A model generated the notes under the pieces. The model saw only the letters and a list, made by a program, of their open reading frames with translations. It was not told the origin of the DNA and did no database searches. Below are positions 1 through 14,446 of a DNA stretch of 15,693 bases, one piece after another (the first letter of the stretch is position 1; each line of letters begins with the position of its first letter). Origin of the DNA: Gammaproteobacteria bacterium. GTDB taxonomy: Bacteria > Pseudomonadota > Gammaproteobacteria > Pseudomonadales > Halomonadaceae. A program made the position numbers and the translations under genes. The stretch spans positions 1 to 15,693 of the forward strand of contig JAMCZP010000064.1 in assembly GCA_023485185.1 (NCBI GenBank), given 5' to 3'.

Positions 1-1215
1 GGGGTCGATCAGAATATTATCCGGGCTAATCTGTTGATGAATAATATCGCGGTGGTGAAGCGCTTGAACCGCCTTCCCTAGCTGATTGGCAATATCGAGA
101 CGCTGAATCAGGCTTGCCTGAGGATGCCGCTCCGCCCATTGGCGCAGCGTCTCACCCTCGATATGCTGCATCAAATAATACAGGTAGCGCCGTGGCCGCG
201 AGGGCTCCATCACCTTAACGACAAACGGCGAATTGACCCGTTCAACCACCCACTGCTGAAGTAGAAAATGTTCAAGATAAGCATTACGCAGTGACAGTTC
301 CGGGCTTGGCGCTTTCATCACCATTTCCCGTTCGGTGTGAACATCGCGTACGCGATAAACCCGCGATTGCGCCGTTCGGGACAAGACCGCCTGCACTTCT
401 AAGCCATCTAACCGCTCACCGGGCGCAAGCTCAGGTGGAATCGGTAAGTCGCCGTATAGCTGACCGGGGTGCTCGCTTATTCCTTCAGGCAACTCATCTA
501 TTCGAACGAGCTGAAAACAGAACTGATCGCCGCCATAGCCTCGCTCTTGAGCACGCTGTTTCGCTTCATCCGCCAAACGCTCGCAAGCGGCATCCAAATC
601 ACTGGCATCCTGGCGAATCAAACGCACGTAGTCAGAAGGCAACAATGTGCCGCGCACGCCCTGGGTAGTAAACAGGAACAGATCGCCCTGTTTTAGCGCG
701 ATATGGGTGTAATCGATATCGACACTGCCATCCATACCCAAGGCACGGGAGGGGTAGCGATAGCCGCCTAAATCTGTCACATGGTCGCGGCTTAACTGCT
801 CAAACTCTGCGCCGCGTAAACGAAAGACCAGCGTATCGCCCATATGAAATAGATGGGCCTCACAGCCTCGAAACACCATCACCGACATAGAGGATACAAA
901 ACTACCCTCTTTCACATGCTGGCTTTGGCTGTAGCACCAGCTGTTAAGTGCGCGTAGCACTCGGGTTGCAGAGGTTTTGACGTCCCAGTGATCGGGGGTT
1001 GAAAAGTAGTCAGCTAAAAAGCCGCGCACACTTAAATCGCCCGCCTGCTTGGCCATAGTATTGCGCGAGATGGAGTCGCTGATAACGGCACAGCCACCTT
1101 TTGCACGCAACAGAGGCGCCTCAGGGAAACGAACCGACATTGAACTGCGGTGTGAGCGCCGATCGGGTGCGACAAACGCTTGACCATAACTGATGAGCAA
1201 CTGGGCGTGCGACAA
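1..1215 (-). CDS. PP2C-like phosphatase / protein-kinase fusion, catalytically degenerate, C-terminus cut by window edge
   Basis: 405 codons are visible and the frame stays open to the window edge. I chose the TTG at 1215-1213 because a perfect AGGAGG lies 5 bases upstream; the ATG inside that spacer (1220) is in another frame that closes after 62 codons. Residues about 5-240 follow the PP2C-type domain of bifunctional phosphatase/kinase proteins of pseudomonads, and residues about 266-405 follow the kinase N-lobe and catalytic loop. Retained: GD at 126-127, the ATP-anchoring Lys in VMK (301) and the loop Asn (400). Lost: the N-terminal RxENQD motif (residues 16-26 carry no equivalent Asp), DG read as DS (47-48), the TDG motif read as TQG (184-186), the glycine-rich loop (279-286, no Gly), and HRDxKPxN read as HQQISPDN (393-400). 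By family knowledge both activities should be impaired or absent, so a regulatory or scaffold role is inferred. The activation segment lies outside the window. No membrane segment is seen in the visible part. Confidence 0.85.
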   Translation of the reverse strand, partial: MSHAQLLISYGQAFVAPDRRSHRSSMSVRFPEAPLLRAKGGCAVISDSISRNTMAKQAGDLSVRGFLADYFSTPDHWDVKTSATRVLRALNSWCYSQSQHVKEGSFVSSMSVMVFRGCEAHLFHMGDTLVFRLRGAEFEQLSRDHVTDLGGYRYPSRALGMDGSVDIDYTHIALKQGDLFLFTTQGVRGTLLPSDYVRLIRQDASDLDAACERLADEAKQRAQERGYGGDQFCFQLVRIDELPEGISEHPGQLYGDLPIPPELAPGERLDGLEVQAVLSRTAQSRVYRVRDVHTEREMVMKAPSPELSLRNAYLEHFLLQQWVVERVNSPFVVKVMEPSRPRRYLYYLMQHIEGETLRQWAERHPQASLIQRLDIANQLGKAVQALHHRDIIHQQISPDNILIDP

Positions 1216-1386
1216 GTCATCCTCCTAGGCTGCCGACTCGATCAAGGGACATCACTGTCAATCAATACTGGTTATGATACACGCTGCTGAGCTGAAACGA
1301 TGCCCGCCAAACGTCTCTATCGTATTAGCACGCTTTTATATTCACACTTTTTTATAACGATTTTGCATCGACCCACCTATGTCGCA

Positions 1387-1475: not shown

Positions 1476-2006
1476 ATGAACTTCGATAATATCCCTGCTG
1501 GAAAGGATCTCCCCAACGACGTTTACGTAGTAATCGAAATTCCAGCTAACCACGATCCGATCAAATACGAAATTGATAAGGATATGGGCGCGCTACTCGT
1601 TGACCGTTTCATGGCCACGCCTATGTTCTACCCTGCCAACTATGGTTTTATTCCGCATACCCTGGCAGACGATGGCGATGCACTTGATGCACTGGTCGTT
1701 ACCCCCCACCCCGTTCAGCCCGGCAGCATTATCCGCGCCCGTCCCGTCGGCATGCTCAATATGACTGACGAAGCCGGCGAAGATACTAAATTAGTGTGCG
1801 TACCCCACGCCAAACTGAGCTCACTCTATGACGATATTCAGGAGGTTACTGACCTACCTGAACTGCTTCGTCAGCAGATCGCTCACTTTTTCGAGAATTA
1901 CAAAGATCTTGAGAAAGGCAAATGGGTGAAAGTAGAGTCTTGGGAAGGCGCGGACGCTGCGCGCAAAGCAATCGAAAAAGCCGTTAGCGCGTACCAAAAA
2001 GCGTAA
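1476..2006 (+). CDS. ppa: Inorganic pyrophosphatase (family I)
   Basis: Cytoplasmic soluble family I pyrophosphatase, which hydrolyses the pyrophosphate released by nucleotide, amino-acid and fatty-acid activation and so pulls those reactions forward. The 176-residue length is typical of the bacterial hexameric enzyme. The active site appears complete: E21, K30, R44, Y56, the DxDxxD cluster D66, D68 and D71, then D98, D103 and K105, each one position later than in the E. coli protein as I recall it. The ATG at 1476 has AAGGA (1464-1468) 7 bases upstream. The gene stands alone, with its own promoter and a strong hairpin after the stop, and is divergent from the kinase-like gene. Nothing suggests damage or transfer. 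Confidence 0.97.
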
Positions 2007-12883: not shown

Positions 12884-13444
12884 ATGTCATTTAAACCCTC
12901 ACCCATTTGGTTAACCGCCATCGTGGCCCCTTTATTCGCTATGCCACTGCTTGCTGACGAGTCCACTTTGACTCTACCAAGTGAGGCAACGGTGGGCGTA
13001 GAAGTGGTTGAAGAGCTCACGTTTACATCAGGACAAGCCCGGCTAGACGACATCTTATTACACCCCATTCAGGCAGCAGGCGCGTCACACTCATTGCCTG
13101 AATATTGCGTCATTATTGGTACTGCACAGTTAAACAATGATCGCATTCGGATTACTACGCAAAATGCCACGTGCATTGAAACCAACGATGCGAATAGCAA
13201 TATTTTTTCAGGCGACTTTGTGGCCAGCGCCTATGCAGAAGATGGCCAATACGCCATTGCCTGCGATGGATCACCCTGCACGCTTTCGCCCGGGCAACCA
13301 TTTTTATTGACACTTGATGAAGCTGTCGAAATTGAAGAGCTTGATAACCCATCAGCCGAGCTAAACCAGCGTCGCCAGCAGGCGAACGGTGAAGGCGTTG
13401 TCAACCCAATCCCCCGAGAGCAGCCCAACCCAGACGCTGAATAG
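12884..13444 (+). CDS. Predicted secreted/periplasmic protein of unknown function
   Basis: 186 residues; I do not recognise the family. The N-terminus looks like a signal peptide: a hydrophobic stretch from about 8 to 22 ending LLA before DES (likely cleavage near residue 24). The mature part is acidic and rich in beta-type sequence. It has four cysteines (C75, C97, C127, C132), compatible with two disulfides in the periplasm, and a polar Pro/Asn/Gln/Glu-rich tail from about 158, suggesting a flexible end. No lipobox, membrane segment or enzymatic motif is visible. The ATG at 12884 has only a weak GAGAG upstream. The extended -10 promoter, downstream hairpin and codon use like the neighbours support a real gene. 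It is divergent from folE and convergent with srkA, so context gives no function. Confidence 0.75.
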   Translation: MSFKPSPIWLTAIVAPLFAMPLLADESTLTLPSEATVGVEVVEELTFTSGQARLDDILLHPIQAAGASHSLPEYCVIIGTAQLNNDRIRITTQNATCIETNDANSNIFSGDFVASAYAEDGQYAIACDGSPCTLSPGQPFLLTLDEAVEIEELDNPSAELNQRRQQANGEGVVNPIPREQPNPDAE

Positions 13445-13455
13445 CAAATACCCGG

Positions 13456-13491
13456 ACCCACGCTGGTTGGTTTATGCCAACCAACGTGGGT
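13456..13491. terminator. Shared hairpin between the secreted-protein gene and srkA
   Basis: ACCCACGCTGGTTGG (13456-13470) pairs with CCAACCAACGTGGGT (13477-13491), 14 of 15 pairs, with a 6-base loop. The stop codon of srkA (minus strand, 13474-13472) lies in the loop and one arm encodes its last residues. T runs on either side are poor, so it is terminator-like and possibly bidirectional. Confidence 0.7.
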
Positions 13492-14446
13492 TATCTAATT
13501 GTAAGCACTGCTGTTCTAATTGGCGGATATGCTGATCCCAGTAACCGTTGTCGGCTACCCATGGAAACGCACGTGGAAAGGCGGGGTCATCCCAGCGGGA
13601 TATCAACCAAGCAGTGTATCGTATCAGCCGATAGCTTCTTAGCGGCTCGATAAGCGACATTTGTTCTGAAGGGAAGGAACACGTTTCCTCATAACCTTCG
13701 ATAATTTCATTTAAGTATGGCCGCCAGCCCTCAGGGTCATCAGTGGGCAGCAGCATCCAGATATCCTGAATAGCGGGCGCCATTAGGCAGTCGTCGAAAT
13801 CGACCAGCGTAAACTGCTCTTCGCGGCCTAGCACATTGCCAAGATGGCAATCACCATGGCAACGAATCATGCTGCTCGCGGGTACGTTATGTTTTAAAAG
13901 GTGTTGATGCATCTTTTGTATAACGCGCTCATAGGCACGTTGTTGATAAAGGGTTAACCGCTCACTTGCCAGCACGCGCTGCTGCGCATCAAGAACACCG
14001 CTCGCCATCTCTAAGTATGGCCGGTGTTGAAACGCCTTCTTAGCCGACACTTGATGTAACCGCCCTAACACCTCCCCCATTGCAAACAAATGAGCAGGAT
14101 TATCCAGCTCTGGCGCCTGGCCTGGGCAGTGGGGAAATAGCGCAAAACTAAATGTCTTAAAGTGGTGTAGAGACACACCCTCTGCATCACGCCAAGGAGC
14201 TACCACCGGCACCTTGCTGTTAGCCAACTCCTGCAAAAAATCATGCTCTTCCTGAATCGCCACATCTAACCACCGATTAGGGCGGTAAAACTTAATAATC
14301 CAGTTTTTGCCATCTTCACCACGAAACATCAGTACACGGTTTTCATAACTGTTGAGCGCGAAGGGCTCCCCTGCTGGCCAAATACCGAGCGACTCAGCGG
14401 CTGACATCACTAAATCTGGCGAAAGAGAGCTAAACGGGTGTGACAT
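13472..14446 (-). CDS. srkA: Stress response kinase A (YihE / RdoA family)
   Basis: Cytoplasmic Ser/Thr kinase with an aminoglycoside-phosphotransferase/choline-kinase-like fold; in E. coli it protects cells under envelope and oxidative stress, and is linked to the Cpx response and MazEF-related death. 324 residues, the usual length. Seen: LNSYENRV (31-38), a probable ATP-contacting lysine K52 in IIKFYRP, the catalytic segment HGDCHLGN (197-204) with D199 and N204, and the magnesium-binding DFD (216-218). The kinase site is therefore intact. The start ATG 14446 has AGGAG 6 bases upstream. dsbA often follows yihE in enterics, but here the gene ends at a shared hairpin. comF lies upstream on the same strand, 54 bases away, with no clear terminator between. 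Confidence 0.94.
   Translation of the reverse strand: MSHPFSSLSPDLVMSAAESLGIWPAGEPFALNSYENRVLMFRGEDGKNWIIKFYRPNRWLDVAIQEEHDFLQELANSKVPVVAPWRDAEGVSLHHFKTFSFALFPHCPGQAPELDNPAHLFAMGEVLGRLHQVSAKKAFQHRPYLEMASGVLDAQQRVLASERLTLYQQRAYERVIQKMHQHLLKHNVPASSMIRCHGDCHLGNVLGREEQFTLVDFDDCLMAPAIQDIWMLLPTDDPEGWRPYLNEIIEGYEETCSFPSEQMSLIEPLRSYRLIRYTAWLISRWDDPAFPRAFPWVADNGYWDQHIRQLEQQCLQLDNPRWLA

Follow-up and report, generated by a model that had tools for sequence, protein, structure and literature searches.

A conserved Halomonadaceae clade of tail-anchored PP2C/kinase fusion proteins that has probably lost both chemistries

The stretch of DNA analysed in this work (referred to here as the window) comprises 15,693 nucleotides of contig JAMCZP010000064.1, from a gammaproteobacterium of the family Halomonadaceae, and at its first bases it carries part of a gene for a protein in which a PP2C-like phosphatase half is joined to a Hanks-type kinase-like half. 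The results described below indicate that this protein probably belongs to a clade of tail-anchored PP2C/Hanks-kinase fusions, conserved in the Halomonadaceae, in which both chemistries have been lost and which has been kept for a non-catalytic job. The residues present at the two active sites make it very likely that both reactions are lost, and the more specific proposal, that the job is that of a nucleotide-gated scaffold or sensor, has about an even chance of being correct. The core claim of the first-pass annotation of this DNA (viz. that both halves have lost catalytic residues while the frame has been kept, in favour of a non-catalytic role) is thus supported, with inactivity as a prediction, because the catalytic Asp is absent throughout the clade, the ratio of nonsynonymous to synonymous substitution rates (dN/dS) is about 0.14, and all 71 of the relatives inspected from outside the family are intact. 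The parts of this gene within the window are as follows.

Positions 1 to 1215, minus strand: gene for the predicted double pseudoenzyme, N-terminal 405 of about 571 codons; the gene is cut at the window's first base.
Positions 1221 to 1226, minus strand: AGGAGG Shine-Dalgarno sequence, 5 bases upstream of the TTG start.
Positions 481 to 1215, minus strand: PP2C-like half, residues 1-245, predicted to be catalytically dead.
Positions 1 to 405, minus strand: kinase-like half, residues 271-405 (its first part; orthologues run to about residue 540).

The 405 codons on the minus strand form an open frame without an in-frame stop. As the gene end lies outside the window, the DFG and APE motifs and the C-terminal helix were read in orthologues of about 571 codons. 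The closest named locus, from a Halomonas metagenome-assembled genome (L001), is 99% identical across the 405 residues, and its full-length product of 571 amino acids consists of a PP2C-like part (residues 1 to about 245), a linker, a kinase-like part (about 271-540) and a C-terminal hydrophobic helix, the same architecture as in the canonical PP2C/kinase fusion family. The only Pfam matches of the protein are of kinase type and a weak one to PP2C. The PF00069 match lies above the cut-off, in agreement with a bilobal Hanks-type kinase fold, and in the predicted structure both folds are preserved, the first half forming a PP2C beta-sandwich and the kinase half superposing on PknB in the usual way. 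The residues read in the first-pass annotation (HQQISPDN, K301, GD 126-127, N400, DS, TQG and the missing Asp of the N-terminal RxENQD) were all correct on rechecking, as was the perfect AGGAGG, located at 1226-1221, which is present within 25 bases upstream of the gene in 50 of 80 related loci; the frame it described as open is so, except that the gene runs past the window edge.

The residue counts reported here are based on 276 distinct clade sequences, from 161 locus rows (157 distinct) and 120 proteins, which do not take in every copy from the 150 genomes with a match (see below), and the same picture is seen after 90% redundancy reduction (81 sequences). In the kinase-like half, the following positions are of importance.

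Positions 16 to 39, minus strand: HQQISPDN, residues 393-400, with the catalytic Asp replaced by Gln395, Ser397 at the Lys position, and Asn400 kept.
Positions 256 to 258, minus strand: alpha-C Glu replaced by Gln320 (Gln in 275 of 276; Glu in 147 of 147 canonical sequences).
Positions 313 to 315, minus strand: Lys301, the beta3 Lys, kept (Lys in 273 of 276).
Positions 355 to 381, minus strand: residues 279-287, at the position of the nucleotide loop, with no glycine here or in the canonical relatives.

The catalytic Asp is present in all 147 canonical sequences and in 0 of the 275 scorable clade sequences (one has a gap), where the site is occupied by Gln (186), Arg (47), Asn (13), Gly (8), Leu (7), Ala (5), Ser (3), His (3) or Ile (2). 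A further loss, which the first-pass annotation did not mention, is that of the alpha-C Glu; this residue is retained in just one of the 276 sequences, and the Lys and Glu pair of an active kinase is therefore lacking. Other residues of this half are mostly kept, viz. the catalytic-loop Asn in 267 of 275 sequences, the DFG Asp (Asp413, known from orthologues as it lies beyond the window) in 273 of 275, and the beta3 Lys, with Arg at its position in two sequences. It was also argued earlier from the lack of glycine in the nucleotide loop that the kinase half is dead. However, this argument is invalid, as at the six aligned columns glycine occurs in 0 of the 124 rows of the canonical clade, and the Arg of HRD is likewise Gln in 123 of these 124 rows. 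Due to their absence from the intact clade as well, neither the loop glycine nor the HRD Arg marks decay, and both features were rejected as such. Individual members of the dead clade show additional changes: the DFG Asp is missing from L154 and L156, Ser replaces the catalytic-loop Asn in L146 and L151, the beta3 Lys is Ala in L139, and in L148 the Asp of the PP2C DG motif is gone, which suggests that even the mostly kept residues can go.

The corresponding positions in the PP2C-like half are given below.

Positions 1144 to 1146, minus strand: Ser24 where canonical relatives have the metal Asp of RxxNQD/NED (Ser 270, Ala 4, gap 2 of 276).
Positions 1072 to 1077, minus strand: Asp47-Ser48 in place of Asp-Gly (Asp in 275 of 276; Gly replaced by Ser, Thr or Ala in 276 of 276).
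Positions 829 to 840, minus strand: GDTL, residues 126-129, in place of GDSR, the Arg being lost (Leu129; Leu in 267 and Arg in 1 of 276).
Positions 661 to 663, minus strand: Gln185, in T184-Q185-G186, in place of the metal Asp of TDG (Gln 254, Arg 22 of 276).
Positions 526 to 528, minus strand: Asp230, the last PP2C metal position, variable (Asp 195, Glu 60, other 21 of 276), close to an alignment length difference.

At position 24, Asp is found in 146 of 147 canonical sequences (the remaining one has a gap) and in 0 of the 274 clade sequences with a residue there, and the Asp of TDG is present in 147 of 147 canonical versus 0 of 276 clade sequences. Hence, two of the four metal Asp of an active PP2C (24 and 185) are absent wherever they can be scored, and that of the DN motif is variable. 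The replacement of the GDSR Arg by Leu129 is another loss which the first-pass annotation had passed over. Acidic residues are also present at three positions (E137, D162 and E262) that do not change within the clade but vary among the canonical proteins. The catalytic Asp site of the kinase-like half drifts, whereas the other four replacements (Ser24, Gln/Arg185, Leu129 and Gln320) are nearly fixed; thus the former looks unconstrained, while the latter look selected. Separately, orthologue residues 149-160 (window 736-771, minus strand), LGGYRYPSRALG, form one of the two most conserved stretches of the clade (0.97); this stretch diverges from the canonical proteins immediately before SRA and is a candidate docking surface.

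If these losses are peculiar to the clade, then it is of interest how the same positions read in its canonical relatives. An intact paralogue in Vreelandella neptunia (L092:6142-7863) is 37% identical, and the clade to which it belongs reads SNQD, ADG, GDSR, TTDG, DDN, REEW, HQDLRPDN and DFG at the matching columns. In outgroup searches, for which 194 genomes were sampled at the order level and 274 at the class level, none of the matches listed beyond those of the family type exceeded 39% identity. Out of these, 71 loci were inspected (23 at the order level, 28 at the class level and 20 picked remote ones, several of which begin late in the query and were hence suspected to be without the first PP2C motif), and all 71 have the four PP2C Asp, the beta3 Lys, the alpha-C Glu, the catalytic Asp, the Asn and the DFG Asp, the exceptions being of detail (L221 has DD for DN and L252 is without the APE motif). 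Double-dead forms outside the family were also sought among these, and the 48 class-level and remote loci examined were all intact, the remaining matches being unread. A quick maximum-likelihood tree was built with 50 rows of the clade and 35 of canonical proteins (85 in all), and in it the two groups split with a Shimodaira-Hasegawa-like approximate likelihood-ratio (SH-aLRT) support of 100. The alignment with fusions of the Pseudomonas and Halomonas type, which had been proposed as a check, accordingly gave canonical relatives that keep the catalytic residues which the clade has lost, and the HQQ and TQG variants proved to be part of a clade-wide loss.

The distribution of the protein was assessed in 151 genomes, a sample of the GTDB family of V. 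neptunia, with P0001 as the query. Matches are present in 150 of these, and in 149 genomes the best match has E <= 7.7e-155 and 48-96% identity; three matches (G026, G047 and G027) align across residues 5-470 only, and that in G095 is a contig-end piece covering residues 1-244. In the single genome with no match (G098), the ppa-type match is also just 41% identical, so that a loss, a gap or an odd placement of this genome is possible. There are no internal stops among the family rows listed. As the losses recur in 276 distinct sequences, they are not due to chance or sequencing error, and we infer that the catalytic loss occurred once, before the family diversified.

A gene on its way out would also lack catalytic residues, and these losses by themselves would fit decay. 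However, this explanation is scarcely credible in view of the matches in 150 of 151 genomes, the lack of internal stops in the listed family rows and the dN/dS values. Based on the NG86 method and pairs with dS of 0.1-1.5 (for the whole gene, 760 out of 3,160), dN/dS is 0.138 for the whole gene, 0.107 for the PP2C half, 0.135 for the kinase half and 0.299 for the C-terminal part, compared to 0.043 for ppa, 0.064 for pfp, 0.032 for accC, 0.015 for argG and 0.242 for dsbD at the same loci. These comparisons show purifying selection of an ordinary kind on the gene, weaker than that on the core metabolic genes compared and stronger than that on dsbD, and constraint on the dead phosphatase half is no looser than on the kinase half. 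For the window gene itself, the pair with L001 has a dS of 0.31 and a ratio of 0.019, the six other window pairs having dS >1.3 or being saturated. Relaxed selection, which would have spoken against the first-pass annotation, was thus not observed.

On the proposed reading as a nucleotide-gated scaffold or sensor, the kinase-like half would still bind nucleotide via Lys301, Asn400 and the DFG Asp413 and act as a nucleotide-dependent switch, the strongly conserved PP2C-like half would be a docking module, and the C-terminal helix would anchor the complex at the inner membrane, with a partner perhaps being recruited or gated there. Several observations weigh against this reading. As the Lys, Asn and DFG Asp are retained, some residual or altered catalysis is conceivable, and some pseudokinases prove to be active, e.g. 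ILK1 (PMC9403797). One of the acidic residues fixed only in the clade (E137, D162 and E262) may lie near an active site. A kinase-like active conformation is harder to argue for, given that the alpha-C Glu is lost. Further, selection on the gene is weaker than on four of the five genes compared, the NG86 pairs are non-independent with just the above fraction in the usable dS range, and the tree joins two long branches, with a program warning and a midpoint root, which leaves the sister group unsettled. The nucleotide binding, the docking and the link to the neighbouring genes are, in addition, inferred.

Two of the alternatives concern the chemistry itself. If the kinase-like half used ATP for another transfer (e.g. 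of AMP), the PP2C-like half serving to bind the substrate or to regulate, then the retention of Lys301, Asn400 and the DFG Asp in 97-99% of the sequences, despite a drift through nine residues at the catalytic Asp, would be accounted for, and precedents for such changes are provided by SelO and SidJ (PMC12599244). However, the predicted kinase half superposes on PknB normally and nucleotide binding alone explains the kept residues equally well; thus we regard changed chemistry as unlikely. The other alternative is that the protein still has weak kinase and/or phosphatase activity owing to catalytic residues at shifted positions. This is consistent with the nearly invariant D47, with Asp or Glu being common at 230 and with the acidic residues fixed only in the clade, and because one of the latter may lie near an active site our estimate for it was raised very slightly. 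However, the residues at the lost positions are non-acidic save for one alpha-C Glu, and the catalytic Asp site drifts, which makes residual activity very unlikely.

The first-pass annotation had further suggested a decoy for an active paralogue, in which case the dead fusion would bind or titrate an intact fusion of the same type within the cell. An intact paralogue of this kind (with HQDLRPDN, SNQD, ADG, TTDG and DDN) does exist in V. neptunia, and two or more fusion matches are present in 29 of 151 genomes. However, at most these 29 genomes have a second fusion, whereas 121 of the 151 have only one (the matches in G026 and G047 being possibly split hits). Moreover, in 26 of the 151 genomes PF00069 gives one match only, which is the dead protein in at least 14 of them (13 listed rows and G046; that of G098 is another gene, and 11 were not located), so that in some species the dead protein is the sole Hanks-type kinase fold visible to the PF00069 model. 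Additionally, PF13672 (PP2C_2) gave no match in 8 of 12 genomes, other kinases and phosphatases having been sought only by PF00069 and PF13672. A decoy or regulator of an active paralogue is consequently rejected as a general role on phyletic grounds, and we consider this explanation quite improbable.

The neighbourhood of the fusion, presumed above to be a non-catalytic scaffold or sensor, is also conserved.

Positions 1476 to 2006, plus strand: ppa, coding for inorganic pyrophosphatase, a conserved neighbour in divergent orientation (its L001 orthologue matches PF00719).

The fusion gene and ppa are adjacent and divergent in 80 of 80 loci, with a median of 253 bases between the matched starts (79 measured), and the same holds for 41 of the 43 rows from loci that are more distant (L124-L166, of which L142 and L165 are one gene). 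A phosphofructokinase gene (Pfam PFK), which we take to be of the pyrophosphate type, lies downstream on the opposite strand in 69 of 80 loci. These neighbours are only a lead to pyrophosphate or glycolytic control, and a promoter region common with ppa would account for part of the linkage. One can also envisage that a complete kinase-plus-phosphatase switch was converted as one unit into a membrane-bound protein that does not phosphorylate, the kinase-like half performing another reaction that depends on ATP, or gating in response to nucleotide, and being linked through these neighbours to pyrophosphate metabolism, a proposal which we hold to be unlikely. A similar phosphofructokinase gene is also found next to the canonical fusion in two genomes from outside the family (loci L190 and L191); here (L190:6689-8023, L191:2028-3353) the canonical fusion is convergent with a phosphofructokinase very like the neighbour of the dead fusion, an arrangement that possibly reflects an older functional link. 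The intact fusion of V. neptunia (L092:1449-7863) is not beside ppa and follows genes which we presume to be those for nitrate reductase, SUMT (cobA-like) and a formate/nitrite transporter, a group suggestive of nitrate assimilation. Membership in a defence system was rejected, as PADLOC gives generic kinase-domain matches only, which are stronger for the canonical paralogue. Elsewhere in the window, positions 13472-14446 (minus strand) encode an APH-family phosphotransferase (PF01636, 117.9 bits) with HGDCHLGN and DFDD, apparently an intact kinase-like enzyme and in our opinion resembling the stress kinase SrkA/YihE, and positions 12884-13444 (plus strand) hold a frame of 186 amino acids, which judged by eye may include a signal peptide and for which Pfam gives no match at E 0.001.

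Cases of a pseudokinase or a pseudophosphatase on its own are known, whereas here both losses occur in one bacterial chain that is nearly universal in the family sample, and the double loss apparently dates from the family ancestor. The clade, usually present in one copy, with an intact outgroup and sometimes with no other PF00069 match in the genome, offers a natural test system for chemistry-free kinase and phosphatase folds. The public name 'bifunctional protein-serine/threonine kinase/phosphatase' on some records is probably wrong for this clade.

Among the known systems, the canonical PP2C/Ser-Thr kinase fusions (the V. neptunia paralogue and those of Halomonas, Pseudomonas and Stutzerimonas) are similar in domain order, length (about 570 amino acids), C-terminal helix and 34-37% identity, but differ in keeping the PP2C metal Asp, the alpha-C Glu and the catalytic Asp (in all 147 sequences as regards the kinase and TDG sites). 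We take PA1782 of Pseudomonas aeruginosa to be a canonical member. TAB1 and PHLPP2 are eukaryotic PP2C pseudophosphatases with a PP2C fold and an altered active site, TAB1 being a regulatory partner of a kinase; unlike the clade, they are not kinase-fused. SelO is not known to have a PP2C half. An earlier account of this clade was not found in the literature searched, which included few subscription papers. PA1782 is named as one of at least three Ser/Thr kinases (PMC8560001), and a survey of bacterial PP2C proteins describes those with kinase domains as potentially two-activity enzymes, the words inactive and pseudophosphatase being absent from its text (PMC12088040). The pseudokinase families ActPs1-3, GLW, CP1, DYD and DLHK are alike in their Hanks fold, broken motifs, conservation and mostly unknown function but differ in their motif patterns, and the term PP2C does not occur in the main text of the review describing them (PMC12599244). 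Based on that description, DYD has Arg for the beta3 Lys (2 of 276 in the clade), DLHK keeps the catalytic Asp, which the clade lacks, and has no membrane region, CP1 is linked to COG3899 and has no membrane region whereas the clade has a hydrophobic tail helix, and in ActPs1-3 all three motifs have diverged whereas the clade keeps the Lys and the DFG Asp. In neither PMC12599244 nor PMC12088040 is a dead PP2C/kinase fusion mentioned in the accessible text. EssB/YukC resembles the clade as a membrane-anchored bacterial pseudokinase with a scaffold role, but it has lost all three motifs, including the Lys and DFG Asp kept here, and is part of the type VII secretion system (PMC12599244). SelO, for which AMP transfer is reported, likewise has a kinase fold without the canonical catalytic residue and with the Lys and a DFG-type Asp kept (PMC12599244). 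Thus, as far as we have searched, the component kinds are known and their double loss in one conserved bacterial chain is new.
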